From Spirochaetia bacterium (lineage in GTDB: Bacteria > Spirochaetota > Spirochaetia > Treponematales > Rectinemataceae), in NCBI GenBank assembly GCA_029975555.1, contig JARKOY010000105.1:1-64000 (forward strand): a stretch of DNA of 64,000 nucleotides. The letters are read 5' to 3'. Positions within the stretch are counted from its first letter, which is position 1. Every line of letters begins with the position of its first letter. The notes under the pieces were generated by a model that saw only the letters and a list, made by a program, of their open reading frames with translations, did no database searches and had not been told where the DNA came from. Positions 11,691 through 47,229 of this stretch are shown here, piece after piece. A program made the position numbers and the translations under genes.

Positions 11691-11760
11691 GGACATGCAT
11701 TGCCTGAGGCTACATTTGTGCATAAGATAGGCGCACGGAGCAGAGGAGGATGCATACGCG

Positions 11761-12510
11761 ATGACGAACATGTTCCTTGCCCTCGCCGACATCCACGGGA
11801 AAACGGAAATGCTTGGGCGCATCTTGAAAGAGAACCCTCAGGTAGGAGGGGTTTTCGTCGCAGGCGATGTGACAAACTTCGGAAAAGAAAAGGATGCTGA
11901 AAAGGTGCTCTCTGTCTTTGCGGAATGCCTGCCCGATGCTGCGCTCTTTTTTATTGGGGGAAATTGCGACACGGTAGCGGCAAGGCACTCCTTTGAGAAG
12001 CACCCAGGGTACATCGAACAGAAATGTGCCACACTTACCATCGGTGGTCACCCGGCTGGTGATGCGGCCACAACAATTCGCATCGTCGGGTGTGGAGGAG
12101 GGCTTCTGCACATGGGGCTTACGCCCTTTGAACTCACGGATGAGGAGCTGGAATTAGGACTTAAAAAGGCCTATGCGCGCTGTCCGGAGAAAGAGGACGA
12201 GCGGCCCGTGGCTTCACCTCCGCACGCCCTCATTGTCCTTACCCACACTCCCCCTAAAGACACGCTCGCAGACCTCCGCTCCACAAGGCATCTCGGAAGC
12301 CATGCCTTTGCTTGCCTGCTCTATGAGTATGAGCCGCTCATCTGGATATGCGGCCATATCCATGAAGGACGCAGTGTCCAGTGGGAAGGCAGGACCCTCG
12401 TCATAAATCCTGGCCCTGCGGCGCTCGGCTCATACGCCATTCTCCATGTCGGACAAAACCTCCGTGGGCTGAGCGGAATGAGCGCCGCCGCAGAGCTTCG
12501 GGCACTGTGA
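11761..12510 (+). CDS. Metallophosphoesterase of the Icc/YfcE-like group
   Basis: This 249-residue protein has the binuclear-metal phosphoesterase motifs in order: D10-x-H12, GD near residue 35, GNCD at 67-70, TH in VLTHTPP near 157, and GHIH near 200. The Cys in GNCD, where many relatives have GNHD/E, fits the Icc-related predicted phosphoesterase group (COG2129-like). The substrate is unknown; small phosphodiesters are plausible. An AGGAGG sequence lies about 12 nt before the ATG. The gene is divergent from deoD and convergent with hflC. Confidence 0.85.
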   Translation: MTNMFLALADIHGKTEMLGRILKENPQVGGVFVAGDVTNFGKEKDAEKVLSVFAECLPDAALFFIGGNCDTVAARHSFEKHPGYIEQKCATLTIGGHPAGDAATTIRIVGCGGGLLHMGLTPFELTDEELELGLKKAYARCPEKEDERPVASPPHALIVLTHTPPKDTLADLRSTRHLGSHAFACLLYEYEPLIWICGHIHEGRSVQWEGRTLVINPGPAALGSYAILHVGQNLRGLSGMSAAAELRAL

Positions 12511-12515
12511 TTATC

Positions 12516-13499
12516 CTATTTTCCGCTTGGGCTGTATAGATACTTGAAGTAGTCCATTCCAGTAGACAGTGTCTTGCGAAATGCCGGCATCGTCCTGCGG
12601 TACGATTCGATGGCCTTCCAGAATTCAAAAAAGGCCGGGTCCCGCCCAAACGAATCCGCATATATTTTTGAAGCCTCGGCGTCGGCTTTGCCCTTTATTG
12701 TTTCTGCCTTCGCGTATGCAGAAGAGAGGATGGAGCGTTTTTCGTTCTCCAGCTTGCCGAGCCACTCCGCCTTCTTGCCCTCGCCGTATGCGCGGAATGC
12801 CTGGGCGATCTGGTTGCGCTCTTTTATCATCCGCTGATAGACGCTCTCTGTCAATTCATCCGAATATCGTATCTGGCGCGGCAGGATATCGACGACTTCT
12901 ATGCCGAAAGTCGGCACGATATTCGAGACGAGGACCTTCATCTCCTCCGCGAGTACGCGGCGTCCCTTCTCTATCTTTTCATATTGGGTGGGCGTAATCG
13001 CAAGCTGTTGCAGCGTGGCGCTGTTTTCCACTTCGCCGGTCTGGAACGTCTCGATTTTATTCGCGTTCAATATTTCGTCAGTGCTGCGCACTGCCTCTCT
13101 CAGATAGTTCGAAGAGATCACGGTGCGGACTGCCGAGTCGATGACATCGTCGAGCTTGCCGAAGGCTCCTTCGAGTGTATTGACGGACTCATAGAACTTG
13201 ATCGGATCGACTATCCTCCAGCGAGCCGTAGTGTCGACATAGATAAACTGGTTTTCCTTGGTGGGTATCCGCTGAGGTTCTCCATCCCATGACATCAACT
13301 TTTTAGGATATTTGATCACAGTATCGACAAAAGGGCTTCGCCACTTCAGTCCGGCATCCGTGTGCATGGCGACGATTTTTCCAAAGCGCACCACGAGTGC
13401 CTGCTCTCCCTCCTGCACGACGAAGAGAGGTCCAAAGGCGACGACGAACACGACCGCCAACGCGGCGAGGACCAGTATGAGTATCGTGACTTTTTTCAT
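12516..13499 (-). CDS. hflC: HflC protease-modulator protein
   Basis: This 327-residue SPFH/prohibitin-family membrane protein partners HflK in a large ring that surrounds and modulates the membrane protease FtsH in gamma-proteobacteria. It has one N-terminal membrane helix (about residues 5-27), then the SPFH domain beginning VVQEGEQALVVRFGK and a long charged helix (about 235-285). The start codon overlaps the hflK stop (ATGA at 13496-13499), showing translational coupling. FtsH itself is not in the window. Confidence 0.93.
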   Translation of the reverse strand: MKKVTILILVLAALAVVFVVAFGPLFVVQEGEQALVVRFGKIVAMHTDAGLKWRSPFVDTVIKYPKKLMSWDGEPQRIPTKENQFIYVDTTARWRIVDPIKFYESVNTLEGAFGKLDDVIDSAVRTVISSNYLREAVRSTDEILNANKIETFQTGEVENSATLQQLAITPTQYEKIEKGRRVLAEEMKVLVSNIVPTFGIEVVDILPRQIRYSDELTESVYQRMIKERNQIAQAFRAYGEGKKAEWLGKLENEKRSILSSAYAKAETIKGKADAEASKIYADSFGRDPAFFEFWKAIESYRRTMPAFRKTLSTGMDYFKYLYSPSGK

Positions 13500-14485
13500 C
13501 TGGAGGCCTCCTGAGTCGAGGATGTCTGGGTAATATTCTTTATGGGCAAGATGTTCTGAATGGATCGATCGATGAGATCTATGTTGTTCTCGCCTTTGAA
13601 TATTTCCTCCATCATTTCATAGTAGAGGCGCTTTTTGGTCACCTCAGGCGCCTTGCGGTATTCTGCGTACACGGCGTCGAAGCGCGCGACATCGCCCTTG
13701 GCCACATTGATCCGTTCTGCGGCATAGCCCTGCGCCACCTCTATAGTCTGCTCAGCCTGTCCCTGGACCTTAGGAATTTCGGCGTTGTAGGCCTCACGTC
13801 CCTCGTTGATGAGACGGTTCATATCCTGGATTGCCTTGTTGACGTCCTCAAACGCAGCCTGGACTCCCTCGGGGGGTACGATGTTCTGAAGCTGCACCTG
13901 TGTCACCACAATGCCGAGGCCATACTTCGTGAAGAGCTCATTCATCAGCGTGACGGCTGCATCCTGAATGGTCTGTCGGTCCGGACCGATGACCCCAAGA
14001 ATAGTCCGATCGCCTATCAGCATGTTGAGGACGGACTGCGACGTGTCTCGTATGGTCTTCTCTTTGTCGGTCACGTTGAAGAGCCATGCTTCAGGGTTGG
14101 CGATCCGATACTGAATGATCCATTCGACATCCACGATGTTGAGATCCCCCGTCAGCATCGTGGCCTCATTCGGGTATTTCTGACTCGAATACTGGGTAAC
14201 GATCCCCGGCTTTATGGTGCGGAAACCAAAGGTTTCGGTCTGGATTACCTGTGTTTTGACAATATACGCCCTCTGGATACCAAAGGGCAGTTTGTAATGG
14301 AGGCCAGCCCCTAGCGTCTTTGTGTACTTGCCGAATGTCGTGATGACGGCCTTCTCCGTTTGATCCACGACAATAAAGCTTGTCGACAGGAAAACGATGA
14401 CTCCTATCGCAAGCAGAATTATCAGCACAAGAGGCCACTTAACGTTGATCTTTGGCGGCTTTTTGAAAATAGTCGTGTTGGCCAT
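13496..14485 (-). CDS. hflK: HflK protease-modulator protein
   Basis: This 329-residue SPFH-domain protein has one N-terminal membrane helix (about residues 17-37) and the HflK-like sequence VVDQTEKAVITTFGKY. It lacks the glycine-rich N-terminal tail of the E. coli protein. It has a strong AAGGAGGG Shine-Dalgarno sequence. The order is pseudouridine synthase, hflK, hflC on the minus strand, with 21 bp before hflK and a 4-bp overlap after it, so the three are probably one operon. Confidence 0.93.
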   Translation of the reverse strand: MANTTIFKKPPKINVKWPLVLIILLAIGVIVFLSTSFIVVDQTEKAVITTFGKYTKTLGAGLHYKLPFGIQRAYIVKTQVIQTETFGFRTIKPGIVTQYSSQKYPNEATMLTGDLNIVDVEWIIQYRIANPEAWLFNVTDKEKTIRDTSQSVLNMLIGDRTILGVIGPDRQTIQDAAVTLMNELFTKYGLGIVVTQVQLQNIVPPEGVQAAFEDVNKAIQDMNRLINEGREAYNAEIPKVQGQAEQTIEVAQGYAAERINVAKGDVARFDAVYAEYRKAPEVTKKRLYYEMMEEIFKGENNIDLIDRSIQNILPIKNITQTSSTQEASR

Positions 14486-14506
14486 GTCTTTTTCCCTCCT
14501 TACATT

Positions 14507-15529
14507 CTAATGCGTAAGCAGTCGCTCTATTCCTTGAAACATTATCCTCTCTAATTCTTCAGCGCCTACCCCGAAGAGGCGCATGGCCGCAGCGGAGAAA
14601 TCCGCAGGCAGAGGATCGGTGATGGTCGATGGCAAGTCGTCGAATAAGGGAGTTTTAAAATATAGACAACAAGAGTGTAAGAAGTAATGAGAAATTATCG
14701 GTGTCCTTTGGCCGCCATATTTTGTGTCGCCCGCAAGGGGCATCCCATGAGCTGCGAACTGCGCTCGAATCTGGTGAGTGATGCCCGTGTGCAGCTCTAC
14801 GAGCAAAAGACTGAGGCCGTCGTGGCGCTCCAAGGGGAATGCACAGAGGCTTGCAGTCCGCCCGCTTTTGTCGACAGTGCTCACACGGCGCCTCGGATCG
14901 CGCGATAGTGTGTCGCGGAAGAACACCGCTTGGCTGATTTCTCCATGCACAATGGCAACATAGAACTTTTTGATGTCTCGATTTCGAATCGCGGCCGTAA
15001 ATTTCTCTGCGCCTGTCCGCGTCTTCGAGAACACGACGATTCCCGATGTATTTCTGTCGAGTCTGTGCAGGGGGCCTGGCGAAAAAGAGACCGAAGGAGA
15101 AAGTTCTCCGCGGAGGAGCCTGAGCGCATGTGCAGTGAGGCTTTCCTCTCCGTCATGCACGAGCATGCCCCGAGGTTTATGAAAGGCAAGCAGGTGTCTG
15201 TTCTGCCAGAGGACCTTCGGAGCTTCTTCGACCACAGGAGGGGTAAGACCTCCTCGGGAGGCAGAAGAGGACGAAGCCGCGGAGAGGCTTTCGGGCATTT
15301 TGTGATCACAAGAGGCCAACAAGGATTCGGGTAGGAATACCTGTACAATCTGACCTTTTCTCAGCCGGTCTTCAGGTCGTATCGGATGGTAGTCAACCTG
15401 AATACCACCTTGACGAAAAAGCCGATAAATCGTAGAGAGCGGCACATGGCGCAGGGCCTTCCTCATTATTCTGTCCGCCCGGCGGCCATCATCGTCCTCC
15501 CCCAGAAGCAATTCCCTTGTCGTATCCAC
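14507..15529 (-). CDS. RluA/RluD-family pseudouridine synthase
   Basis: This 340-residue protein has an N-terminal S4 domain (about residues 8-65) and the catalytic domain with HRLDRNTSG, whose Asp is the family nucleophile; ELHTGITHQIRAQF and AGDTKYGG follow. It modifies uridines in rRNA or tRNA; the exact site is not predictable. The frame is open to 15733, but that would run into the divergent 15627 gene. I place the start at GTG 15529, because TTGACC (15559-15564) and TATGTT (15536-15541) with a 17-bp spacer put the transcription start at or beside this codon, with no Shine-Dalgarno sequence: a leaderless mRNA. Confidence 0.85.
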   Translation of the reverse strand: MDTTRELLLGEDDDGRRADRIMRKALRHVPLSTIYRLFRQGGIQVDYHPIRPEDRLRKGQIVQVFLPESLLASCDHKMPESLSAASSSSASRGGLTPPVVEEAPKVLWQNRHLLAFHKPRGMLVHDGEESLTAHALRLLRGELSPSVSFSPGPLHRLDRNTSGIVVFSKTRTGAEKFTAAIRNRDIKKFYVAIVHGEISQAVFFRDTLSRDPRRRVSTVDKSGRTASLCAFPLERHDGLSLLLVELHTGITHQIRAQFAAHGMPLAGDTKYGGQRTPIISHYFLHSCCLYFKTPLFDDLPSTITDPLPADFSAAAMRLFGVGAEELERIMFQGIERLLTH

Positions 15530-33409: not shown

Positions 33410-34080
33410 AGGTAGCGATCGATGGACCGGCCGGGGGAGGCAAATCGACGATTGCGCGGATGATTGCAGAGAATTTTGGATTTTTGTATATCAACTCCGG
33501 CAACCTCTACCGTGCGGTGACATATCTGGCCCTGCAAGAAGATGTCTGTTGGCAAGACAGCCAGGCTATGATTGCGCTTGTACAGCGGCACCACTTCGAT
33601 TACCGACCCGACGGCGCGGTTGAGGTCGATGGCAAGCTCTTAGCAGGAGAGCTGCGCAGTCCACAGGTCGATGCAATCGTCTCACAGGTTTCGGCAATCC
33701 CAGAAATCCGCGCTCAAGTCAACTCGATTATCCGGTCTATCTCCGAAGGAAAAGATGTTGTAAGCGAAGGCCGCGACATCACCACGGTCGTCTTCCCCGA
33801 TGCGGAGATAAAACTCTATCTTGATGCCTCTGCAGAGATCAGGGCGGAGCGGCGCTTCAGAGAACGACTTGCCCAGAAGGTCTCGGATATCCCTCCTCGC
33901 ATTGAGGATATACGGAAGAACATAGAAATGCGAGACGCCCTCGATGCACAGAAAACCGTCGGAGCGCTTAAAATTGCACAAGATGCCATATATTTGGACA
34001 CTTCAGACTTGACCATACAGCAAGTTTATGAGAAAGTATACAAAATTTTAAGGGCAAGGATTGCACATGGCAGAAAATAA
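33406..34080 (+). CDS. cmk: Cytidylate kinase
   Basis: This 224-residue kinase phosphorylates CMP and dCMP. It has the canonical P-loop GPAGGGKST at residues 7-15, the substrate motif INSGNLYRAVT, and SEGRDITTVVFPDAEIKLYLDAS. Length matches bacterial Cmk. It is the orthodox counterpart of the P-loop-altered protein at 20.6 kb. It overlaps rpsA by 14 nt, the widespread cmk-rpsA pairing. Confidence 0.95.
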   Translation: MKVAIDGPAGGGKSTIARMIAENFGFLYINSGNLYRAVTYLALQEDVCWQDSQAMIALVQRHHFDYRPDGAVEVDGKLLAGELRSPQVDAIVSQVSAIPEIRAQVNSIIRSISEGKDVVSEGRDITTVVFPDAEIKLYLDASAEIRAERRFRERLAQKVSDIPPRIEDIRKNIEMRDALDAQKTVGALKIAQDAIYLDTSDLTIQQVYEKVYKILRARIAHGRK

Positions 34081-35794
34081 GGAAGTGGAAATGGACGTTC
34101 ATGAGCCCTCCCGGGACGATATCCAGACACAATTGCAGGAGCAGTACCTCAAGTCGCTTGAGGGGCTGGAGGAGGGAGACTTAATCGATGGCAAGGTCGT
34201 GCAGGTTGCGGGAGACACGGTCTTCATCGATGTCGGATACAAGTCCGAAGGCAAGTTGAATCTGCTTGAGTTCGGCGACACACCGCCAAAGGCAGGCGAT
34301 ATTGTCAAGGTAATCTTGATCCGCAAAGAGACTCATTCCGGCGACATCGTGATATCCAAGAAAAAAGCCGACGAAAAGCTTTTTTGGAAATCAATAGCAA
34401 ACGCATTCAAGGATCACCTTCCGGTTCCAGGCACCATCACAAAGGAAGTGAAGGGTGGCTTTGAGGTGGATCTCGGCCATGGACTTTCGGGATTTTTGCC
34501 GCTGAGCAAGGCCGACGTCCAGCGGGTGGAAAAGAGTGCGACGCTGATTGGTCTCCACGCCGATTTCTACCTTGAACGGCTGTATTCCGATAAAAAGATC
34601 AACATCATCCTCAACAGGCGCAAGCTCATGGAGGAAGAAATCGAGCGGCGCCGCGAGGCCTTCTTTCAGAACACGCAGATTGGCGACACGGTAAAAGGTA
34701 CCGTCAAGAGCTTCACCAGTTTTGGTGCCTTTATCGACCTGGGCGGCTTCGATGGGCTTCTGCACATCAACGACATGAGCTGGGGCCACGTGACCCGTCC
34801 TAAAGACTTCGTCCGCAAGGGCCAGGAGATCGAGCTCAAGGTCATTCGGCTCGACCCCGAAGAAAAACGGATCAACCTATCGCTCAAGCACTTTACGCCG
34901 GACCCGTGGAACAGCTTTGAAGAGAAATATCATGTCGGCGATGTTGTAAAAGGTAAAGTGACCAAGCTGACGGATTACGGCGCCTTCATCGAAGTGGAAG
35001 AGGGTATCGAAGGCCTTGCCCACATCTCCGAATTTTCGTGGGTGAAAAAAATCCGTAAACCTGAGGATATGCTGAAGGCCGGCGATGTCGTCGACTGCAT
35101 GATCCTCGGATACGATATCCCTGCAGGGAAGGTCTCGCTCGGCCTCAAGCAAGTACAGCCGAATCCATGGGACACCATCGACGAGCGGTACCCCGTCGGC
35201 ACAAGGCTCAAGAGAAAGATCGTCAAGGTCACCAACGCCGGTGCCTTCATCGAAATGGAAGAAGGTATCGACGGTTTTCTGCACATCGACGACTATTCCT
35301 GGACTCAGAAAATCAAGAACCCCTCCTCCGTGCTCCATGAAGGTGATGAGATCGACGTCATCGTGCTCGAGAGCAACCCAGAGGAGCGCAACATCCGTCT
35401 CGGCGTGAAACAGCTGAGCGAAGACCCTTGGCGCTCCTTCGCCAAGACTTACAGGCCAGGCTCGATCGTCGAAGGGACTGTCTCATCGGTGACCGATTTC
35501 GGCGTATTCGTCAAGGTGCCTGGAGATATTGAGGGCCTTATTAAAAAACAAGACCTCGTTTCCGACCGAAGCGAGTCCTACGACGATGCCCTCAAGAAAT
35601 ATCAGCCAGGCATGCAGGTCAAGGCGGTCATCACCGACCTCAATGCCGATCGGCAGAAGCTTGGTCTCTCCATCAGGGATCTCGTCCAGAGAGAGGAGCG
35701 AGAAGAGATTTCCCGATTCATTCAAGAAGATGAAGGCGAAGCTGGCTATACGCTTGGCGACCTTCTCAAGGCAAAGGATGAAGAGAGCGACTGA
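34067..35794 (+). CDS. rpsA: 30S ribosomal protein S1
   Basis: S1 helps capture and unfold mRNA on the 30S subunit. The 575-residue protein holds six S1/OB repeats starting near residues 36, 120, 205, 290, 377 and 464; repeats 3-6 have the RNA-binding GAFI/GVFV core and repeats 1-2 are the divergent ribosome-anchoring type. The ATG at 34067 is 6 nt after AAGGA and lies inside cmk. A six-repeat S1 usually serves Shine-Dalgarno-dependent and weakly led mRNAs, so it is notable beside the leaderless starts here. Confidence 0.95.
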   Translation: MAENKEVEMDVHEPSRDDIQTQLQEQYLKSLEGLEEGDLIDGKVVQVAGDTVFIDVGYKSEGKLNLLEFGDTPPKAGDIVKVILIRKETHSGDIVISKKKADEKLFWKSIANAFKDHLPVPGTITKEVKGGFEVDLGHGLSGFLPLSKADVQRVEKSATLIGLHADFYLERLYSDKKINIILNRRKLMEEEIERRREAFFQNTQIGDTVKGTVKSFTSFGAFIDLGGFDGLLHINDMSWGHVTRPKDFVRKGQEIELKVIRLDPEEKRINLSLKHFTPDPWNSFEEKYHVGDVVKGKVTKLTDYGAFIEVEEGIEGLAHISEFSWVKKIRKPEDMLKAGDVVDCMILGYDIPAGKVSLGLKQVQPNPWDTIDERYPVGTRLKRKIVKVTNAGAFIEMEEGIDGFLHIDDYSWTQKIKNPSSVLHEGDEIDVIVLESNPEERNIRLGVKQLSEDPWRSFAKTYRPGSIVEGTVSSVTDFGVFVKVPGDIEGLIKKQDLVSDRSESYDDALKKYQPGMQVKAVITDLNADRQKLGLSIRDLVQREEREEISRFIQEDEGEAGYTLGDLLKAKDEESD

Positions 35795-35815
35795 GCTGCA
35801 GGCCCGGTCCTCAGT

Positions 35816-37339
35816 GTGAAAGTGATGGTTTCAGCGATTGATTCGGAGAAGTTCCGAACGTTGATCGATATCAACGCGCGGCTCAACTCCAGTTACACGG
35901 ATTTCCGTTCGTTGCTGAAGACGATCGTGGAGTCGGCGGCGAGGCTTGTCGGTGCGGAAGCGGCAAGCCTCGCGCTCTTTGATGCGCCGACCAACACGCT
36001 CAGATTTGAAATTGCACTCGGCCCCCGGGGTCCGGAGCTCCAAGGGAAAATGATTCCTGCGTCGGAAGGCATTGCCGGGTGGGTATTTCAGAACAGCCGT
36101 TCCATCATCGTCAACGACGCCATCCACGATCCCAGGTTCTCGCCGGCAGTGTCAAAGGAAATCTCCTACACCACGACTTCAATTCTTGCGGTCCCGTTGA
36201 AAGTCAGGGACAAGACCGAGGGCGTCATCGAGCTCATCAACAAGACCTCCCGCGGCCTGTTCGTCAGCGACGACCTCGAGTGGGCGGAACTGTTTGCCGT
36301 GCAGGCTGGCATCGCCTTCGATAACGCGAGACAGTACGAGCGGACCGAGCACGAGCTCGCCTACCTTCAGCATAAAGTACAGGAAGACCAGGGTTGGCAC
36401 CCTCTCATCTTCTCCTCGAAGGTGATGCAGGAGCGCCTCGAGCTCGTCAAACGGGTCGCCCCAAGCGATGCCTCTGTGCTTATTCTGGGCGAGAGCGGTG
36501 TGGGAAAAGAACTGATTGCCGAACAGCTGCACCTCAACTCGCGAAGAAGCCAAAAGCCCTTTATTCGCGTCAACTGCGCCGCGCTGCCGGAAAGCCTGCT
36601 CGAGAGCGAACTCTTCGGTCACGTCAAGGGGGCCTTCACCGACGCCATACGCGATAGGGAAGGGCGTTTCGAGGCCGCCGACGGCGGGACGATATTCCTC
36701 GACGAGATCGCAGAACTTCCTTTGAAGCTGCAGGCTAAGCTTCTTCGAGTCATTCAGCAGAAGAGCTTTGAGAGGATAGGCTCAAACGAGACCATCAGGG
36801 TAGATGTCAGAATCGTCGCGGCGACCAACAGAGATATCGAGAAGCTCGTACAGAATCAGGAGTTCAGGAGTGACCTCTATTACCGTCTGAATGTCCTACC
36901 GATTCAGATACCTCCTCTACGGGAGCGTCTAGAGGACATCCCTACCCTGGCCGAGCACTTTCTGACGAAATATGCGAGGGAGACGAACCGAGGGCTCCTC
37001 CGTTTCTCGGATTCCGCGCTGGAACTCATGCTGGGCTACAGCTGGCCTGGAAACGTCAGAGAGCTGGAGAATGCCGTGGAGAGGGCGGTCCTCATCTCCA
37101 AGGGGACGATCATCACTGCGGAAGACCTCATGATAGGGAAAAAACTAGCCTCCGGGAACGAGCGGTTTGAGGGCAAAGAGCTGAAAGAAGCAATTACTTT
37201 ATTCAAAAGCAATTATATACGAGCAGCCCTCGAGCAAAACCGATGGAATCAGACCGAGACTGCCCGATGTCTGAAGATACAGAGGACCTACTTGTCACGA
37301 TTGATAAAAGAGCTCAATATTCTGCAGAGTAAGGAGTAA
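35816..37339 (+). CDS. GAF-AAA+-Fis sigma-54-type transcriptional activator
   Basis: This 507-residue regulator has a GAF sensor domain (about residues 12-170), an AAA+ domain with Walker A GESGVGKE at 225-232, and a Fis-type helix-turn-helix at the C-terminus (WNQTETARCLKIQRTYLSRLIKEL). The sigma-54 contact loop reads GAFTDA at 272-277 where the consensus is GAFTGA; Walker B is GGTIFLDEI. The GAF ligand and target genes are unknown. It starts at GTG 35816, 21 nt after rpsA, and the next gene begins 3 nt after its stop. Confidence 0.9.
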   Translation: MKVMVSAIDSEKFRTLIDINARLNSSYTDFRSLLKTIVESAARLVGAEAASLALFDAPTNTLRFEIALGPRGPELQGKMIPASEGIAGWVFQNSRSIIVNDAIHDPRFSPAVSKEISYTTTSILAVPLKVRDKTEGVIELINKTSRGLFVSDDLEWAELFAVQAGIAFDNARQYERTEHELAYLQHKVQEDQGWHPLIFSSKVMQERLELVKRVAPSDASVLILGESGVGKELIAEQLHLNSRRSQKPFIRVNCAALPESLLESELFGHVKGAFTDAIRDREGRFEAADGGTIFLDEIAELPLKLQAKLLRVIQQKSFERIGSNETIRVDVRIVAATNRDIEKLVQNQEFRSDLYYRLNVLPIQIPPLRERLEDIPTLAEHFLTKYARETNRGLLRFSDSALELMLGYSWPGNVRELENAVERAVLISKGTIITAEDLMIGKKLASGNERFEGKELKEAITLFKSNYIRAALEQNRWNQTETARCLKIQRTYLSRLIKELNILQSKE

Positions 37340-37342
37340 CGT

Positions 37343-38071
37343 GTGAATCAACAGGAAAAGCAGCCGCAGAAGGATAGGGATGCCCCTACAACGACCGAAA
37401 AGAAGACTTTTTCTGAAAAATTGGCCGATTTCATCAGCATGCACCGGATGCTGATCATCGGCATCGGTGTTGCTGTCGTCGTGGCGATTGCGGCGGTCGG
37501 CGTCTACACCGTGGTCTCGGGGAACATCGCTTCGGCATCTGGCAGGGCCATGGACCTCGCAGATCAGAAGTTCCAAACCTGGTCTCAGGAAACGGACGAA
37601 CAGAAGAAGGCGGACGCGGAGAAATCCCTCATCGCCGATCTGGACTCAATCGCGAAGAAGTGGCCGAGGACCCTTGCCGCCCAGCGCGCGCTCCTCAAAA
37701 AAAGTACCATTCTGAGCCAAAAGAAGGACTATGCGGAGGCCGAGAAAACGGCACTCGACGCCTTTGCGAGAAACAAGAAATCCTATGTGGCGCCCGTGGC
37801 GCTCCAGCTCGCAGCGGTTGCGGCGGAGGAGGCCGGGAACACCGACACCGCCATCGCGCACTATACCGCCCTCACCAAGGATTATCTCAAGACCAGCCCT
37901 GTAGTTCCTTCGGCGCTCTTCAATCTCGGCCGCCTGCAGGAGGACAAAAAAGACTATAAGGCCGCCCTGGCAAGTTACAATCAGCTCGTGTCGTCCTTCG
38001 GCGGTTCGGAGTGGGCGCTCCTCGCCAAGAATAGAGTGATCTACCTGAAGGCGCAGGGCCTGGCTGAGTGA
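37343..38071 (+). CDS. Membrane-anchored TPR protein (YfgM-like)
   Basis: This 242-residue protein has a charged N-terminus, one membrane helix (about residues 36-58), and an outer region of helical repeats (about 85-235) with TPR features such as KDYAEAEKTALDAF and KDYKAALASYNQLV. It resembles the YfgM/DUF2133-like ancillary secretion factors in layout; the function is not certain. The GTG start has AAGGAG upstream within the end of the activator gene. Confidence 0.75.
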   Translation: MNQQEKQPQKDRDAPTTTEKKTFSEKLADFISMHRMLIIGIGVAVVVAIAAVGVYTVVSGNIASASGRAMDLADQKFQTWSQETDEQKKADAEKSLIADLDSIAKKWPRTLAAQRALLKKSTILSQKKDYAEAEKTALDAFARNKKSYVAPVALQLAAVAAEEAGNTDTAIAHYTALTKDYLKTSPVVPSALFNLGRLQEDKKDYKAALASYNQLVSSFGGSEWALLAKNRVIYLKAQGLAE

Positions 38072-38092
38072 GCCGAGAGAAAAGAAGAAGAG

Positions 38093-38824
38093 GTGTACCT
38101 GAAGATTGAGATGAGAGCGCAGAGGGCTTCGGATACTTTCTCTCACGGGGTGTTGCCAGCCTTGTTTGTCGTCGCGCTTGCCGCATCATTCCTTATGTCT
38201 TCGTGCGGCTGGCCGACGTCGGATTATCTGTATCCGCCGTCTTATTTTTCGACGTCCGGCTCCAATCTCGTGCGGCTCGTCCATGAGACTGAGAACATCG
38301 ACGACAGCGTCGTCGCGGCTCTGTTCAAGGGGTACGACATATATTATAGGATATTCGACACCTATGATGACGCATACATCAGCTACAACTATCTGTCCAA
38401 CAATTTGACCAGCAGCAACATCGCCACGGTGGCGTCTTCGAAAGGCTATTATGTGCTGGTAAAATATGATAAGACCAGCACCCCCGACACCACCGTGCCG
38501 CTTATTCCGGTCTCAGACAATACGTACAGCTCCTTCGACCTACATTTGAACGCAGACAGCAGATGGACGATCATCCCAGATGACACAACAGCGCTTTACT
38601 ACATACTTCGAGACAAGAGCGATTCAAGCACCGAGGATTTCTATCGCAGCAGTAAGTACGAGAGCAGCGACCACGACTACGCGGGCGATGGGATTTCAAG
38701 CGGCTCCAGCGTGTACATCGTATTCTTCGCAGTCTCGTATGGAATTTCTTCTTCCCTGAGCGAGCTCTACAGCAACCCGATAGTAATAGGGCCGGTGCAA
38801 TACACACCGGGCGGCGGCTCCTGA
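38093..38824 (+). CDS. Putative lipoprotein
   Basis: This 243-residue protein has a signal peptide ending in a lipobox (FLMSSC, Cys near residue 38), so it is probably lipid-anchored. The mature part is Ser/Tyr/Asp-rich and beta-like, and I recognise no domain. The start is uncertain: GTG 38093 follows a purine-rich AGAAGAAGAGG, and ATG 38111 is an in-frame alternative. It is the last gene of the left arm before the dif-like site. Confidence 0.7.
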   Translation: MYLKIEMRAQRASDTFSHGVLPALFVVALAASFLMSSCGWPTSDYLYPPSYFSTSGSNLVRLVHETENIDDSVVAALFKGYDIYYRIFDTYDDAYISYNYLSNNLTSSNIATVASSKGYYVLVKYDKTSTPDTTVPLIPVSDNTYSSFDLHLNADSRWTIIPDDTTALYYILRDKSDSSTEDFYRSSKYESSDHDYAGDGISSGSSVYIVFFAVSYGISSSLSELYSNPIVIGPVQYTPGGGS

Positions 38825-38845: not shown

Positions 38846-38908
38846 GCTTTCCTCAAGAAGGAGGGCGGTGCCTGCAGAACGGGGTGACCATGGGGGCGCA
38901 CCGTGGGT

Positions 38909-39008
38909 GGGGTTGGGGTTGCCCGAACGCGGCCCATTATTTTAATATTAAGCGTCTTTAGGTTCGCATAATGTATATTCTGTCTACCATATGGCGCACC
39001 CCAACCCC
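38909..39008. repeat. G-rich inverted repeats flanking the dif-like site
   Basis: GGGGTTGGGGT at 38909-38919 is repeated in inverted form (ACCCCAACCCC) at 38998-39008, so both G-strands read 5'-3' towards the site at 38961-38988. An 8-bp direct repeat GGCGCACC also occurs on each side (38895-38902 and 38993-39000). The left block has four or five G-tracts between 38881 and 38918 and could form a G-quadruplex. The rest of the gap 38825-39058 holds no gene that I can see. Confidence 0.75.
38961..38988 (+). other. dif: Probable dif site (XerC/XerD chromosome dimer resolution site)
   Basis: The XerC arm reads GGTTCGCATAA, the centre TGTATA and the XerD arm TTCTGTCTACC. Against the E. coli 28-bp dif (from memory) 22 positions match: all but one in the XerC arm, all six central bases, and six of eleven in the XerD arm. 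It lies in a 234-bp convergent gap, exactly where gene orientation switches from mainly + to mainly -, as expected at a replication terminus. It is flanked by inverted G-rich repeats. XerC, XerD and FtsK genes are not in this window. Confidence 0.85.
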
Positions 39009-39058
39009 AGAAGTCCCCGCCTCAGCTGCCCAGAGCGCTGCCCGCTACAGAAGCGTCG

Positions 39059-41617
39059 CTACAGAATGTCCTGCAACCTGACGTACCCTTCATTATCAAG
39101 CCTCCCATAGCATTCAAGGCGCTCCGCCACGAAATGGTCTTCTGCCGACAAGTGATCTTTTAAGATTTTATAGAAGCTTTGCGTCTTTTTTGACGCTCCG
39201 GAAAAAATCTCTATGAGGCCAATCTCACGCACATGGGCATCGGTCTTTGTCAACACAAAATCGTCAGAATGATGGTCGGCAAGGATATTCACCGCCTTGG
39301 TGTACGACTCTTCCGATGCGAACACATACCTCCACGCCGCAGCCCTGAATAAGGCACCGATCGTCCTTTTTTTATCATCGCTGTGCGCGCTCATGCGCAA
39401 ATTTTCTATGCGAAGCCCGTCAGGCAGATTCTCGTTCAACGAAGAGAGAATCCGCCCCTGATTTTTCAGCATCAGCTCCTCAAGTTCTTCGAGCCTGTCC
39501 TTCGGCATATCGACCCACAGCAGCAGAATCTCATTCTTTCCCTCGACACCAAGGGCCAAGGGAGGAGACAGCTCCATTCTGGGCTGAGGATTAAATCCGC
39601 GAGTAAATGCTACATGAAAGCCGCACACCTGAAAGGCCCTCGAAAAAGATCTCGCCACATCGTGCAAGGGATACAGCACCGCAGCATTCCGCTTTGACCA
39701 GACCGCAATCAATTTTACCTGCTCAAGCTCGGATACAGCCTCACAGCGCCCCAGAACCGAGCCACCCTCGCAGACTGTGTTTTTATATAGTATACTATTA
39801 GATACAACAGCGGCCTGACTACCGCATACTCCGCACCTTTCAGTACAATTTTCATTACAAGTTGAAGTTAAGGCATTTTTCTGTGCCTTCTGTTTCTCCT
39901 TTTTGAGCCACCCGGTGCTCACGTTCAGTGATATCTCGCGCCATGGAAGGAGGGCGTCCTCTTCTCTTTGCGCCAAAAATGACTGCCACGCCCCCTCCCC
40001 TCTCCTTTTATTGTAATCGTCCAGCACTCGCCGCCACAGGTCGCGGTCTATGTGTTCATCCCAAGCATCAAGCCTTGCGCCTTTCAGGTATGCCTCAGAG
40101 ATAATTTCTCCGACGGATTCATCTCCGCGAGAAATTATTCCTTCCAACACCGACAAAAAGGGAGGATGGTAGCTCACCTCAACGTTCTTTCGATATTTTA
40201 GGCTTCGCCGTATGTGCTGAATGCAGGCCAGCCCCTCTTCCTCCGACAGCTGCGCCTCGCGCTCAAAGGGCGTGTGCGGCTTTGGAATGAAGGTGCCCAC
40301 ATTCACATGAATTGAAATCCGTTCCACCTGCGCTATCCGCTCGATGTACTCAACTATTGCATCTGCTTCTTGCATTCCACGTTCAGGGAGCGGAAGGCCC
40401 ACCATAAAATAAAATTTTGCGGACTTAAATCCTCTCTCTCTGGCTTCGTGCAGAATCGTCGCGATTTTTTCGAAAGGCACCCGCTTATTGATCGCACACT
40501 GCCACGATTCAAGCGGTGTCTCAACGGCAAAGGTCAAGCCAGACTTTCGTACCTCAGAAATTTCTTCCAAGAGAGGCATGGTAAAACTGTCGACTTTGAG
40601 GCTTGGCAGCTGAAAAGAGACCTTGTACTTTGCCCATGCAGCATTCAGTTCCTCGAAGAGCTCGACAATTCCCGGATAGTCACCGGAAGACAAGGATGAG
40701 AGCGTGATCTCCCTGTATCCTTTTCTTACAACGAGATCCTCCACCTCTTTTCTTATTATCTCGGGCAACTTCGACCTCTGAGGACGATAAAAATACCCTG
40801 CATGGCAGAAGCGGCACCCGTTAGGGCAGCCGCGCATAATTTCGACGGACCCGTGCGAGTGGACAGGATTCAAGACTGGATATGGAAATGTATTCCCATA
40901 CTCAGTCTTATAAAAATCCTGAAAAATTGCCCTCACAATGCGCTTTTTATGGGGAAGCTTAAGACGCTCTTCCACCGATGGAGATATCCAGACCGAAGGA
41001 TGCCCGGCAAGCAGGGTCAGCTTTTCCCGCCTGTCCGCCCCACGGCTTTTGAGCTCCGCCATCTGTACCATGAGGTCCATGAAGCCTGCCTCCGCCTCGC
41101 CGATCCAGACGGCATCGAGAAAATGGGCAAAAGGCAGCGGATTCGTGACAGCTGGCCCCCCGGCCATGACGATTGGGTCCCGGTCGCCTCGCCGCATCGT
41201 TTCAAACGGTATGCCGCCACGCTCCATGACGGCGAGCATGTTCGTGGCAAGGAGCTCATAGCCCACAGTAAACGCAAGTATATCCGTATCAGACAATGGG
41301 ATGCCGCTCTCCAGCGTATACAGCGGTATCTTTTTTCGAATTAAAAGCTGCTCGAAATCCGGAGCCGGCGCGAAGACCCTCTCACAGACAATCTGGTCCT
41401 TCTTTTCATTCAGCCAGGAATAGATGATTCTGAGCGCATTATTGGACATGCCTATCTCGTAGAGATCGGGAAAACACAGGGCTATTCTGAGACGCGCATC
41501 CTCTTCTTCTATCGGAGAGGCGGCGCCGCACTCTCCTCCCACATAGCGGGCCGGCTTCTGCACTTCAAAGAGGGCCGAACCGATGTCGCGCATCGGTTTG
41601 ATGAATCTTCCGTTCAT
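39059..41617 (-). CDS. Radical SAM protein fused to a DUF2344 domain (TIGR03960/TIGR03936 type)
   Basis: This 852-residue protein has an N-terminal B12-binding-like region, a radical SAM core with the cluster motif RGCPNGCRFC (CxxxCxxC) near residue 262, a cysteine-rich linker (TCNENCTERCGVCG) near 640, and a C-terminal domain of about 200 residues (YPLHDVARSFSRAF onwards) like the separate TIGR03936 protein. The reaction is unknown. The start ATG overlaps the rodA stop (ATGA at 41614-41617); the frame is open to 41677. It is the last gene of the mre-mrd string and ends at the dif-containing gap. Confidence 0.88.
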   Translation of the reverse strand: MNGRFIKPMRDIGSALFEVQKPARYVGGECGAASPIEEEDARLRIALCFPDLYEIGMSNNALRIIYSWLNEKKDQIVCERVFAPAPDFEQLLIRKKIPLYTLESGIPLSDTDILAFTVGYELLATNMLAVMERGGIPFETMRRGDRDPIVMAGGPAVTNPLPFAHFLDAVWIGEAEAGFMDLMVQMAELKSRGADRREKLTLLAGHPSVWISPSVEERLKLPHKKRIVRAIFQDFYKTEYGNTFPYPVLNPVHSHGSVEIMRGCPNGCRFCHAGYFYRPQRSKLPEIIRKEVEDLVVRKGYREITLSSLSSGDYPGIVELFEELNAAWAKYKVSFQLPSLKVDSFTMPLLEEISEVRKSGLTFAVETPLESWQCAINKRVPFEKIATILHEARERGFKSAKFYFMVGLPLPERGMQEADAIVEYIERIAQVERISIHVNVGTFIPKPHTPFEREAQLSEEEGLACIQHIRRSLKYRKNVEVSYHPPFLSVLEGIISRGDESVGEIISEAYLKGARLDAWDEHIDRDLWRRVLDDYNKRRGEGAWQSFLAQREEDALLPWREISLNVSTGWLKKEKQKAQKNALTSTCNENCTERCGVCGSQAAVVSNSILYKNTVCEGGSVLGRCEAVSELEQVKLIAVWSKRNAAVLYPLHDVARSFSRAFQVCGFHVAFTRGFNPQPRMELSPPLALGVEGKNEILLLWVDMPKDRLEELEELMLKNQGRILSSLNENLPDGLRIENLRMSAHSDDKKRTIGALFRAAAWRYVFASEESYTKAVNILADHHSDDFVLTKTDAHVREIGLIEIFSGASKKTQSFYKILKDHLSAEDHFVAERLECYGRLDNEGYVRLQDIL

Positions 41618-42933
41618 GCCGAATACCTGCGGGCTGAAATTCCTGTGAGTATGCCGATCGAAATGAGACCGGACCACAGCGCAGAGCCGCCATACGAGAC
41701 GAAGTACAGAGGTATCCCCGTCACCGGCATGATGCCCATCGCCATCCCGATATTGATCATGAAATGAAATGCAAATATGCCCAGGATGCCCCCCACCACA
41801 AATTGACTAAAACGATCTTTCGACGTCTCTATGAGAATGAAGCACCTCACAAATATGATTGTATAAAGGACAAAAAGCACCATACAGCCAAAAAAGCCAA
41901 ATTCCTCCGCAATGATGGAAAATATGAAATCGGTGCTCTGTTGGGGGATATACCGGGCGTGGCTGTGGGTACCTTTGAGGAATCCTTTTCCCCAAAATCC
42001 TCCTGATCCTATAGCCGTGATGCTCTGAAGGATGTTCCAGCCGGAACCCTTTGGGTCGATGTTGGGATCGATGAAGACGAGGAGTCTCTCGATCTGGTAA
42101 GGCTTCAATAGTTTGTGGGCGGCAGTGGCGCCAGCGATGGAGAAAGCCAAAATCGCCAGGCTATATGAGAGCCAGTAATAATACGGCTTTTTGAACTTGA
42201 ACCATCCAATACTCGAAATTATCGAAACAATGAGGATGAGAATAAAAACCACATAGAGGATTCTGTCCTGAGTCACGAGCATATAAAGAAGATTTTCAGG
42301 ATTTGGATGATTTTGAGCATAGAGCGGAAGACTCAAAAAAAGAAAAATGCCGACGATGGACAAGACGCCAAACAGAATGTATCGAAAATCGACATCGGCG
42401 AGCGTCAGTATGGCGAGGGCAGCAGGGAAAAAGACAAGGGCTGAGCCAAAATCAGGTTGAGACAGGATGAGCATGAGGGGAATAGCCAAAATGCCTCCGG
42501 TCTTCAATAGCTTTTTGAAACTCGAGTCGAACTCTGCGGAATCCAGATAGCGGGCGAGCATAAGCACTGTCGCAATCTTCGCGAACTCTGCCGGCTGAAT
42601 GCCAAAACCGGCTAATCCAAGCCACGACCTGGAGCCGTTCACGACCTTCCCCACGAGCCGAGTCAAAATGAGCAGGATGATACTGAGTGCGAAAAATATC
42701 CATGCAGTATCCTTAAACCTTGAAAAATCGATGAGCGCCGCGCCGATCAAAAGGAAAATGCCGATTACAAACCAAATCAGCTGTTTTATGTACTCGTTCG
42801 AGACGACCACGCCGTTCGCGTCCACTCCGGCAGAATAAATTGCCGCAATGCCGATGCCGCACAGTGAAAACGTCGCGAACAGCAGGTAGTAATCGACATT
42901 GCCGAAAAGTCGCTTGATGCTCTGAAGAGTCAT
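41614..42933 (-). CDS. rodA: Rod shape-determining SEDS glycosyltransferase RodA
   Basis: This 439-residue polytopic membrane protein polymerises lipid II for cell elongation together with PBP2. It has about ten hydrophobic segments and SEDS motifs such as NGSRSWLGLAGFGIQPAEFAKIA and SQPDFGSALVF, with the long loop segment near QQSTDFIFSIIAEEFGF. The ATG at 42933 overlaps the mrdA stop (ATGA); the open frame to 43062 lies inside mrdA. The protein is longer than E. coli RodA because of extra loops. Confidence 0.94.
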   Translation of the reverse strand: MTLQSIKRLFGNVDYYLLFATFSLCGIGIAAIYSAGVDANGVVVSNEYIKQLIWFVIGIFLLIGAALIDFSRFKDTAWIFFALSIILLILTRLVGKVVNGSRSWLGLAGFGIQPAEFAKIATVLMLARYLDSAEFDSSFKKLLKTGGILAIPLMLILSQPDFGSALVFFPAALAILTLADVDFRYILFGVLSIVGIFLFLSLPLYAQNHPNPENLLYMLVTQDRILYVVFILILIVSIISSIGWFKFKKPYYYWLSYSLAILAFSIAGATAAHKLLKPYQIERLLVFIDPNIDPKGSGWNILQSITAIGSGGFWGKGFLKGTHSHARYIPQQSTDFIFSIIAEEFGFFGCMVLFVLYTIIFVRCFILIETSKDRFSQFVVGGILGIFAFHFMINIGMAMGIMPVTGIPLYFVSYGGSALWSGLISIGILTGISARRYSA

Positions 42934-44789
42934 TCCCTTCTCCCGTGCACGGAGGAACCTTCGAGGCGGACCCCCACAGCTTTGGCCGCTTCTTGAGCAC
43001 TCTGTCCGGCATACATCGCCTGATAAATGACGTTGGCGGCATAGGGTGCCCACCACTCCCATGGATTCGATGCTTCAACCATCGTCACGACGACGACTTG
43101 ATCTTTTGCAGGGGCATCGTAGGGGCCAAAAGACGCGAACCATGAATGCCATCTGTCCTTCAGGCCGATTTCCGCCGTCCCAGTTTTTCCTGCGATTTGT
43201 ACGACTTTCGTCGACATGGCCACTTTGGGAGTGCCGTTGACGATGACATTCCTCAGATACGATCTGAGCATATCGAAGGTCTTTGCCGATATGGAGGATT
43301 TATGCACAACCTCTGGTTGAATTTCGTGTATGAGGGCGCCGGTGGCCGGATCGCGCACCTCTTTTAGCACGTGCGGCTTGTAAATCACGCCGTCGTTGAC
43401 GACCATCGCCATCATATCGGCAACCTGGAGAGGGGATGCGAGCATATACCCCTGACCTATGGAGAGGTTCATCGTATCGCCAGGAGTCCACGGTTCGTTG
43501 TACTTTTCTTCTTTCCAAGAGGGCGTAGGGAGAAGCCCTTCATTTTCGCCCGGCAAGTCGATGCCGGTATCTTTTCCATACCCGAAATCTTGCGCATAGC
43601 TCACGATATTTTCCACTCCGATATAGTCTCGGCCGACGGTCCAATAATAAATGTCGCAGGACTGCGCAAGCGCATCTTCAAGGGCAAGAGGACCATGCCC
43701 CGGCTTCTTCACGTGACAGCTCCATGAACGGCCGCCGTAGAAAATTTCGCCGGAACAGTACACGGTCTTATCAGGAGAGATGAATCCTTCTTCCAGGATC
43801 GCCGCCGTAAGGATCGTTTTGAATGTGGATGCGGGCGGATACGAAGCCTGATATGCGCGGTTGAGCATGGGCTTCTGAGGGTTGTTCAAAAGTTCGAGAT
43901 ATGCTCTGCCGGCGCTGTCTGACATAAAGACCCTCGAATCATAATAGGGGTACGTCACCATAGCCAGGACTTCACCGGTCGAAGGTTTGAGCACGACCAC
44001 AGAGCCCTGACGCTTTCCAAGCGCATCTTCGGCAATTTTCTGAATGGAGCTGTCGATAGTCAGTATCAAACGCTTGCCGGCGACAGGCGCCTGGATCCTT
44101 GCGACGTCGCTGGCTATGTCCTTACCGTGGACATCGACCGCCTTGGAAATCCAGCCGTCCTGTCCCTTGAGCAAGTCTTCATACGTCAATTCGATGCCAG
44201 CCTTCCCCGTCAGGTCCTCCAGCGTGTATCCTTTGTTGTACAACAGCTTGTATTCGTCGCGAGTGATGGTGCCGACATAGCCGACAATGTTGGAGAGCGA
44301 TCCCAGGTCTGCATAATCCCTGAGAGGCTTGGACGTCCACGAGACGCCCGGAAAATCGTCAATCCTGGCGGCAATTTCTGTTATGGCCGCCAAACTCGCA
44401 TTTTTTGCCACCACCACTCTGCCATAAGAATACGCATTAGGATCGGGCAATTTGCTCTCTATATCATCGGTCGACATGTTCAAGAGCCTTGCCAAGTTGT
44501 TCACCACTGTGTTTCTTTGGGCCCGGGGGAGTTCCGAAGGCGTTATGTAGACAGAATAGGCCTCGATGTTGCCAGCGAGGAGCCTCTCTCCCGATCTGTC
44601 GTAGATTTCTCCTCGTGGGGCGGGTATCCTCGTGGATTGGATAGAAATACGTTCCGCCTCGCTCTCAAATAGCTTTTTTCGCAGTACCTGCATAGAAAAG
44701 AGATTGACCGAATATATGGCTAAAAGAGAGAGTATCAGTGTTCTCAACACGCGGATGCGGCGAGTTATCTTCTTTTGCAAGACCGCCAT
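42930..44789 (-). CDS. mrdA: Penicillin-binding protein 2
   Basis: This 619-residue transpeptidase cross-links peptidoglycan during elongation. It has one N-terminal membrane helix (about residues 14-34), the PBP dimerisation domain starting APRGEIYDRSG, and the catalytic motifs YPPASTFK (active Ser near 319), the SxN-type SCD in AQSCDIYYW, and KTGTAEIG near 533. The ATG at 44789 has GAGAGGA about 9 nt upstream; a longer frame to 44906 runs into mreD. It overlaps rodA by 4 bp. Confidence 0.95.
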   Translation of the reverse strand: MAVLQKKITRRIRVLRTLILSLLAIYSVNLFSMQVLRKKLFESEAERISIQSTRIPAPRGEIYDRSGERLLAGNIEAYSVYITPSELPRAQRNTVVNNLARLLNMSTDDIESKLPDPNAYSYGRVVVAKNASLAAITEIAARIDDFPGVSWTSKPLRDYADLGSLSNIVGYVGTITRDEYKLLYNKGYTLEDLTGKAGIELTYEDLLKGQDGWISKAVDVHGKDIASDVARIQAPVAGKRLILTIDSSIQKIAEDALGKRQGSVVVLKPSTGEVLAMVTYPYYDSRVFMSDSAGRAYLELLNNPQKPMLNRAYQASYPPASTFKTILTAAILEEGFISPDKTVYCSGEIFYGGRSWSCHVKKPGHGPLALEDALAQSCDIYYWTVGRDYIGVENIVSYAQDFGYGKDTGIDLPGENEGLLPTPSWKEEKYNEPWTPGDTMNLSIGQGYMLASPLQVADMMAMVVNDGVIYKPHVLKEVRDPATGALIHEIQPEVVHKSSISAKTFDMLRSYLRNVIVNGTPKVAMSTKVVQIAGKTGTAEIGLKDRWHSWFASFGPYDAPAKDQVVVVTMVEASNPWEWWAPYAANVIYQAMYAGQSAQEAAKAVGVRLEGSSVHGRRE

Positions 44790-44820
44790 TGTATTGCCAT
44801 CCTCTCTCAATACCGCGCAA

Positions 44821-45330
44821 TCATGGAAGGGCCTTTTTCGGGCTGTGTTCAAAAAATCGTTGGACAAAAGACAGAAGAAAGAAAATAAGGGTTGTGACAA
44901 GCCCATTCATAATGAGCTCAACACCAAACTCCGCACTGAATATCTGGTATGCGTGGATATTGGCCGAAAAAAGCCCGAGAAGAATCCTTGAGAGGAATCC
45001 CATCACGATCGTCGCCGCAGCTCCAAGGAGGAAGGGGATGACCACCGCATCTTTCTCCGCCACATAGCTTACAAGTGTCGTCAGATATGCGCAGCTTGAA
45101 AATAGAAACGCAAAATAGCCAAGCGGGGAAGCGCTCAGCATGTCGGCGACAACGCCGGTAATGAATGCAGCGATTATCCCATGCCCATTTTTATTGATGA
45201 ATGAAGAAAAAAGAAGCACCGACATCGCCAGATCTGGAATGACCCCCAACACTATGCCGTGAGAGAGCCACGTGGATTGCATGAAGAGCATGAGAACCGC
45301 ACAGGCAGATGTTATCAGTATGCTTTTCAT
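44821..45330 (-). CDS. mreD: Rod shape-determining protein MreD
   Basis: This 169-residue protein has five to six hydrophobic segments, the usual MreD layout, and a helical C-terminus. It anchors the elongation complex with MreC. It begins inside the mreC stop (overlap 45327-45330) and precedes mrdA by 31 nt. The sequence is poorly conserved between species, so context carries much of the call. Confidence 0.88.
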   Translation of the reverse strand: MKSILITSACAVLMLFMQSTWLSHGIVLGVIPDLAMSVLLFSSFINKNGHGIIAAFITGVVADMLSASPLGYFAFLFSSCAYLTTLVSYVAEKDAVVIPFLLGAAATIVMGFLSRILLGLFSANIHAYQIFSAEFGVELIMNGLVTTLIFFLLSFVQRFFEHSPKKALP

Positions 45331-46178
45331 TCGTTGGGACCTTTATCGATGGCGAACACGTATTCAATCCTGCTCAGATCGATGCTGGGCCACACATCGA
45401 TGACGAGAGAACTCGAAAATTCGTTCAGTCTGAAGCGTTCAACCCTTCCGATCATGATCTCGGGCGGAAACACCTGATCCAATCCGCTGGTCACGACGAT
45501 ATCACCTTGCTTGAGCTGATCCACCTCCCCTTTAGGAATATACAGCAAATTCAGGGGCGAATCCCGAAAACCCTGACCTTTGATCATGCCTTCCGCGCGC
45601 GTCTTTGCGAGTCTGGCAGCAGCAAAAAAGCGCTGATCATAGATCGGCTGCAGTACACTTGTGGAAGCCTTGACCTCTATGATCTTGCCAACCAAACCTT
45701 CCACGCCATCTTGGTATGCTACGACGGGCATATACTTCTTTATGCCTTCGAGATACCCTTTATCGATGACAAGCGACGAGTAGATGTTGCTCGGGTCCTT
45801 TGCGATGACGTGGGCAGCTATTTTTTTCGTGTCCGGCAGGCTGCGCAAGTCCAAGAGCTCCTTCAACCGCTGATTCTCTTCTTTCAGCACTGCAAAATCC
45901 CGTTCTCTCAATTCATAATCCCGCATTTTGTCCAGAAGGGCCTCGTAATCTTGTTGAAGGGAGCGAAGCTGAGAAACGGCGCCGATTGAGCGTGAGAAGA
46001 AAGAACTCACCGCTGCAAATCCTCTCTGTATCCCTCCTATGACATAGCCTTTAAAGATATCAGGAATCCTGGCCATGGTTTTTGTCGAGACGAATAGCAT
46101 CGCCAGGGAAAAAATCAGGCAAATGGCAGCCTTTCGATGTACGGCTCGAGTAGGACCATGAACACCACTGTTTTTCAT
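45327..46178 (-). CDS. mreC: Rod shape-determining protein MreC
   Basis: This 283-residue bitopic protein has one N-terminal helix (about residues 17-34), a coiled coil (about 68-110, LRSLQQDYEALLDKMRDYELRE onward in heptads), and the beta-rich MreC domain ending VVTSGLDQVFPPEIMIGRV. It links cytoplasmic MreB to the periplasmic wall enzymes. It follows mreB by 16 nt and overlaps mreD by 4 bp. Confidence 0.93.
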   Translation of the reverse strand: MKNSGVHGPTRAVHRKAAICLIFSLAMLFVSTKTMARIPDIFKGYVIGGIQRGFAAVSSFFSRSIGAVSQLRSLQQDYEALLDKMRDYELRERDFAVLKEENQRLKELLDLRSLPDTKKIAAHVIAKDPSNIYSSLVIDKGYLEGIKKYMPVVAYQDGVEGLVGKIIEVKASTSVLQPIYDQRFFAAARLAKTRAEGMIKGQGFRDSPLNLLYIPKGEVDQLKQGDIVVTSGLDQVFPPEIMIGRVERFRLNEFSSSLVIDVWPSIDLSRIEYVFAIDKGPNE

Positions 46179-46194
46179 GCCTATCCTGCCGGCT

Positions 46195-47229
46195 TCATAG
46201 GTTCAGGCTTTCGTAAACGCTGCTACTTCCCACATTTTTCTGCATAATCTCAAAGTATTTGCCTGCTCCAACCGCTACGCATTCAAGGGGCCGCTCTGCA
46301 AGTATCACGGGCACCCCTGTCTCTTTAGCGATGAGCTTCGGCAGGCCCTTCAAGAGCGCACCGCCGCCCGAGAGGACGATGCCTCGCTCGACGATGTCTG
46401 CCGCCAATTCTGGCGGTGTCTTCCCGAGGGTTTTTTTCACTTCTTCGACGATGAGATTCACCGAATCCATAAGGGCTTCGCGAATTTCAACAGAATCGAC
46501 CTCAAAGCGTCGCGGCAACCCCGTAATCGCATCGGTGCCCTTTATCTCCATCTTCTCTATGGTTCTCTCCGGGCTTGCGTTTCCGATCTCGATCTTCAAT
46601 CTTTCTGCGGTCTGCTCACCTATGATGAGGTTGTGAATGTTCCGAATGTGCTTGACGATGGCATCGTCGAATTCGTCCCCACCGACGCGGATCGCGCTCG
46701 TTACTACCATGCCCTTCAAGGAAATTACGGAGATCTCGGTGGTGCCGCCCCCGATGTCGCAGATCATGTGGCCTGCGGGCTCCGTAATGGGGATGCCGGC
46801 GCCGATGGCTGCCGCGAGCGACTCTGCGATCACCTTCACCATCCGGGCCCCAGCCTTATATGTGGAGTCTATGACGGCATTTTCCTCCACCTTCGTGATG
46901 CATGTCGGTACGCCGACCACAACCCTTGGTTTAAAGAAGAGGGCCTTAGGGAACACCTTTTGAATGAAATATTTGATCATCTTCTCCGTCATGTCGGGAT
47001 CGGCTATCACGCCATCCCTCAGGGGGCGCTTGGCGATGATGTCAGTGGGTGTCCTCGAGAGCATTCCCTTGGCCTCGGTGCCGACGGCAACGAGGCGGTT
47101 CGTTCCCCTTTCGATGGCCACGACCGACGGCTCATTGAGTACTATGCCTTTTCCTTTCACATAGATGAGCGTATTGCATGTCCCGAGATCGATTCCGATG
47201 TCAGGACTGAACATGTCCAAAATACCCAC
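46195..47229 (-). CDS. mreB: Rod shape-determining actin homologue MreB
   Basis: This 344-residue bacterial actin forms membrane-bound filaments that guide wall synthesis. The phosphate loops are visible ([19 protein letters not shown] near residue 12 and [14 protein letters not shown] near 164), as is [12 protein letters not shown] near 288. The start is GTG 47229 with AAGGAGAA upstream. It leads the mreB-mreC-mreD-mrdA-rodA string, with a TPR gene 17 nt before it. Confidence 0.97.

Follow-up and report, generated by a model that had tools for sequence, protein, structure and literature searches.

A predicted chromosomal dif site in a probable Rectinema-type spirochaete, its conserved setting in Treponematales and the probable use of such sites by temperate microviruses

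Introduction

The contig JARKOY010000105.1 of a Spirochaetia bacterium (family Rectinemataceae, order Treponematales; assembly GCA_029975555.1) contains a 28-bp sequence resembling the dif site of E. coli, and raises the question of whether this is the chromosome's own dimer-resolution site or a similar sequence with another role. We analysed positions 1 to 64,000 of the forward strand of this contig (the window) together with the whole assembly and related genomes. A dif site marks the terminus region of a chromosome, and the replication forks need not meet exactly at it (PMC3025954).

Results

A single dif-like site between two convergent gene groups

The 28-mer GGTTCGCATAATGTATATTCTGTCTACC occupies positions 38961-38988 on the plus strand of the window. 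Comparison with E. coli K-12 dif (reference letters confirmed on the minus strand of NC_000913.3:1590750-1590777) revealed 22 identities over 28 positions, with the counts for both arms and the centre (Table 1) exactly as originally predicted. With equal base use assumed and both strands counted, chance would produce so good a match about 0.0005 times in the window and about 0.03 times in the genome, and the second-best match in the window reaches 19/28. The 3.27-Mb, 179-contig assembly has no other site within three mismatches of the 28-mer. A search of literature text found AATGTATATTCTGTC in no paper.

The site sits in a 234-bp convergent gap, as the original prediction had it, between an ORF ending at 38824 (+) and another ending at 39059 (-). 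In a greedy ORF set, 28 of the 35 genes on the left (28 on plus, 7 on minus) and 17 of the 20 on the right (17 on minus, 3 on plus) point to dif, which is consistent with the orientation switch counted earlier (about 33 of 40 genes on plus to the left, about 20 of 25 on minus to the right).

The 28-mer is flanked by a G-rich inverted repeat with perfect 12-bp arms (TGGGGTTGGGGT at 38908-38919 and ACCCCAACCCCA at 38998-39009), the folding of which is better than that of most shuffled versions (z -2.2). It is absent from the relatives in the alignment around dif and, not being conserved, was rejected as part of the mechanism.

Table 1. Predicted dif elements, neighbouring genes, proviruses at dif and dif positions in relatives. 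The first twelve rows refer to the window, and the L handles to separate loci.
Feature	Location	Strand	Remarks
XerC-binding arm of dif	38961..38971	+	GGTTCGCATAA; 10/11 vs E. coli; predicted binding
Central region of dif	38972..38977	+	TGTATA; 6/6 vs E. coli; predicted strand-exchange place
XerD-binding arm of dif	38978..38988	+	TTCTGTCTACC; 6/11 vs E. coli; near-invariant TTCTGTCTACY in Treponematales; predicted binding
rpsA	34061-35794	+	left convergent group (34061..38824)
sigma-54 activator	35816-37339	+	left convergent group
TPR protein	37343-38071	+	left convergent group
243-aa protein	38093-38824	+	left convergent group; family not recognised
TIGR03960 radical SAM	39059-41677	-	right convergent group (39059..47229)
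rodA	41614-43062	-	right convergent group
pbp2/mrdA	42930-44906	-	right convergent group
mreC	45327-46178	-	right convergent group
mreB	46195-47229	-	right convergent group
Provirus, L340	6089-10745
Provirus, L341	5241-10052
Provirus, L342	3912-8475
Provirus, L343	6195-10696
dif, Treponema parvum NZ_CP054257.1	52.6% of sequence
dif, G038	48.5% of sequence
dif, G041	46.7% of sequence
dif, G039	48.0% of sequence
dif, G031	42.2% of sequence
dif, G034	60.3% of sequence

The site coincides with the GC-skew switch

Within the window, the GC skew is positive up to 38-39 kb and negative beyond, and the cumulative skew over the whole 96.7-kb contig has its maximum at 38155. On contig C151 of this genome the minimum falls at 169776, adjoining dnaA at 168571. 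The skew check suggested with the original prediction thus places the maximum near dif and the minimum beside dnaA as far as the draft allows, since in a genome of 179 contigs the switch is seen on contigs and not on a closed circle. Among genomes of the same genus, the maximum lies at 64500 against dif at 64382 in G008, and 12 kb off dif in G007. At six dif loci of other genera, the 10-kb flank skew does not run in the expected direction. In six relatives with dnaA at the sequence start (single contigs, or a complete genome for Treponema parvum), dif lies 40-49% of the chromosome from dnaA (Table 1).

Conservation across Treponematales is confined to the 28 bp

The consensus ACTNNNNATAATGTATATTCTGTCTACY, allowing up to three mismatches, was found in 51 of the 59 genomes searched, including all 44 of good quality (completeness of 90% or more, contamination of 5% or less; the present genome among them), and a reversed-pattern control gave zero matches in all genomes searched. 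Each matched genome has one dif except G056, which has two sites (L345 9994-10021 and L346 9988-10015), each three mismatches from the consensus. A skew switch occurs at L345 and none at L346, so the latter is probably not the dif of that genome. An extra match on contig C4 of G052 was dropped, as it is without the spirochaete XerD arm. In addition, an exact scan of a 257-Gb genome collection for ATAATGTATATTCTGTCKACY, a pattern that includes TTCTGTCTACY, returned at least 119 stretches. Among the matches listed, two have titles reading only "bacterium", and every other title names a spirochaete (Treponema, Spirochaetaceae, Rectinema and others). The site is also present in Rectinema subterraneum SURF-ANA1 (contig WESA01000024.1).

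Alignment of 129 distinct 48-mers showed that conservation starts and stops exactly at the 28 bp; as most of the 48-mers were found with a pattern fixing positions 8-28, the independent evidence is that of positions 1-3 (89-96% ACT). Positions 23-28 are independently supported by matches to a pattern ending at position 22. The centre TGTATA is the same in most relatives.

The two arms differ in their conservation. The original prediction held that the XerD arm had drifted, which proved wrong: it is near-invariant in the order, and it is the XerC arm that varies, at positions 4-7, while its outer ACT and inner ATAA are kept. In this genome the XerC arm does resemble that of E. coli closely. The family consensus ACTTCGTATAA has 7/11 identities to the E. 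coli arm, and 9/11 to what we take to be the B. subtilis arm. The arm starts with AC or GC outside the genus, G stands at position 2 in the whole genus, and GG is found in this genome only; a G or GG start so peculiar to genus and genome makes the closeness to E. coli partly a coincidence and a quirk of the lineage.

A sequence conserved for another purpose, such as a bidirectional terminator or a regulator site, or a chance resemblance, would also suit a convergent intergenic gap in which a G-rich inverted repeat flanks the 28-mer. However, it is the 28 bp that are conserved, and not the flanks with their inverted repeat. There is one copy per genome, the 28 bp are kept even where the neighbouring genes differ, and viruses insert exactly at them (see below). 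We consider this explanation scarcely credible and prefer a dif site.

Gene order around dif is kept across families

The gene order on both sides and the orientation of dif are kept in families f1, f4 and f5, and the gene for the 243-aa protein was not detected left of dif in f4 and f5. A radical SAM homologue lies to the right of dif on the minus strand at 81 of the 84 dif loci having one, a count in which some genomes were entered twice, under handle and record name. Family f3 departs from this order: some members have only rodA-mre next to dif, and others have none of these genes there. It is often the terminus region of a chromosome that is rearranged most.

Two Xer recombinases and an FtsK gamma domain are encoded

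One contig (C70) of the assembly carries a row of ftsZ-like, XerD-like and dprA-like genes and, about 4 kb away, topA-like, XerC-like and hslV-like genes, the neighbours ftsZ, dprA, topA and hslV being named by inspection. The best model of the XerD candidate is TIGR02225 (XerD), with 316 bits against a cut-off of 330, and that of the XerC candidate is TIGR02224 (XerC), with 310 bits against 335; both proteins are above the general tyrosine-recombinase cut-off and slightly below these NCBIfam equivalog cut-offs. The labels XerC and XerD were assigned by best model and are likely rather than certain. In an alignment that runs along E. coli XerD (1a0p), the XerD candidate has the residues R, K, H-x-x-R, H and Y, which we take to be catalytic, in register. 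FtsK contains a gamma domain (PF09397 match) that aligns with solved FtsK-gamma domains, including the NRAAR stretch of the recognition helix.

The XerC/XerD pair sought in support of the original prediction is thus represented by two distinct full-length Xer recombinases. The equivalog scores might be taken to indicate a single-recombinase site of the XerS or XerH type, at which one of the two Xers acts. By contrast, the two distinct full-length genes lie in classical neighbourhoods, the XerS model scores 91-98 bits compared to 310-316 bits for the XerC and XerD models, and the arms of the site differ, as expected for two proteins. XerS/difSL and XerH systems have one Xer only, and two Xer genes are found here. 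A one-recombinase site is hardly plausible, and we favour a XerC/XerD site.

Three further tyrosine recombinase genes (L004, L006 and L010) stand in tandem on a 3.9-kb contig (G000:C94:205-2637), presumably resembling a recombinase-in-trio element.

An E. coli-like KOPS motif is polarised toward dif

On three same-genus contigs around dif (697 kb), the E. coli KOPS GGGNAGGG points toward dif at a ratio of 142:25 when unmasked, a figure that an odd G-rich stretch of G007 makes too high. After masking, the ratio is 107:25 (81%; GGGG reaches 58%, P about 2e-8). Among 11,492 XXXNXXXX patterns, GGGNAGGG then comes first both by z and by fraction. In G038, sampled from another family, the ratio is 86:29, and near the own origin of the window genome the polarity is weak (22:15). 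The B. subtilis SRS, the letters of which we take to be GAGAAGGG, was rejected as a guiding motif at 24:20. From this polarity we infer that FtsK uses GGGNAGGG in this spirochaete.

The odd stretch (L228 ~9200-15000; G007:C20 ~129200-135000) spans about 6 kb with a GC skew of 0.6-0.8. It lies apparently inside an AsmA/TamB-type gene, has repeated segments and some Ns, and is either an assembly artefact or a real hyper-biased repeat.

Microviruses are inserted at dif in relatives

The sequence AATGTATATTCTGTCKACY matches one IMG/VR contig, the 4.7-kb microvirus IMGVR_UViG_3300002449_000002 (L254), which has a 22-bp terminal direct repeat (1-22 and 4692-4713) corresponding to the dif centre and XerD arm, with a degenerate XerC arm. 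A microvirus capsid family is present in five of the 394 genomes of the order searched. In four of the five, all draft genomes (MAGs), the microvirus genes have an intact dif on one side and, on the other, a partial site that retains one arm only; the two sites are 4474-4784 bp apart, and the contigs are 48-236 kb long (Table 1). The intact and partial sites share identical runs of 12, 20, 23 and 36 bases, the 12-base run, in G052, being the weakest case. The capsid genes match PF02305 and the replication genes PF23343, and no integrase was seen among the listed ORFs of the insertions. Three of the four insertions adjoin a radical SAM gene, and the microvirus-free G036 has this gene directly next to dif.

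Xer-dependent integration has been shown for enterogokushoviruses in E. coli (PMC7062461) and proposed for Bacteroidetes proviruses (PMC3091885), and by analogy the spirochaete arrangement follows theirs. The likeness includes genomes of about 4.5 kb at the host dif, with an intact dif at one end and a degenerate hybrid at the other. The present cases, which lie outside the window, differ in their Treponematales hosts and in att sites of the spirochaete dif form. A Spirochaetes microvirus met in a 2022 survey was discounted there because it was a lone contig of a fragmented MAG (PMC9239249); unlike it, the present proviruses are embedded in long contigs. In the literature found, integrated microviruses have not been convincingly reported for Spirochaetes.

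As microviruses do use such sites in relatives, the 28-mer could itself be the Xer attachment site of a mobile element (a plasmid-type dif or att site) and not the chromosome's own dif. Nevertheless, the assembly has a single site, its flanks are conserved housekeeping genes in the order of the relatives, it lies at the skew maximum, and both of its arms are intact in the clade form. We regard an origin from a mobile element as very improbable. For the chromosomal dif, the insertions at the orthologous site offer natural, if indirect, support for activity.

Discussion

We conclude with high confidence that the 28-mer is the chromosomal dif, that is, the chromosome-dimer-resolution site, of this probably Rectinema-type spirochaete, with its function predicted; the site is real and almost certainly functional. 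The central claim of the original prediction, a dif in the terminus region, has held up against the skew switch, the uniqueness of the site and the Xer pair. Binding, catalysis, FtsK activation and the assignment of the Xer proteins to the arms are inferred. Homologous recombination would fuse two sister chromosomes into a dimer, and septal FtsK would follow GGGNAGGG-type KOPS to the terminus and contact XerD via its gamma domain. With XerC bound to the left arm and XerD to the right, the two recombinases would then exchange strands at the central TGTATA of two dif copies to yield monomers.

The system resembles E. coli dif/XerCD/FtsK-KOPS in the length of 28 bp, the 11-6-11 layout, the centre, the terminus position, the two Xer proteins, FtsK-gamma and the polarity of the KOPS motif. 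It differs in the XerD arm, TTCTGTCTACC here and TTATGTTAAAT in E. coli, and in its place between rpsA and the radical SAM/rodA/mre operons. The kind of site is already known: Kono et al. (2011, PMC3025954) used profiles from Firmicutes, Chlamydiae and Proteobacteria to predict dif in seven spirochaete species, and the present site is of the same phylum and kind. We found in the text of that paper no clade-wide consensus, gene setting, KOPS or virus use. As far as the literature searched shows, four things are new: an XerD arm specific to the clade, the conservation of the gene setting, the polarity of KOPS and the integration of microviruses. We propose that Treponematales quite likely share a distinct form of dif with a near-invariant XerD arm, which keeps its place between the convergent rpsA and radical-SAM/rodA/mre operons from family to family, is accompanied by E. 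coli-like KOPS, and is where temperate microviruses enter by Xer recombination.

The site places the terminus in a largely uncultured group of spirochaetes, and with its consensus a dif was located in all good-quality genomes of the order that were searched. The motif polarity suggests that FtsK may read the same signal in spirochaetes as in E. coli, and the proviruses at dif in spirochaete contigs provide evidence, if indirect, of Xer recombination at this site in nature.
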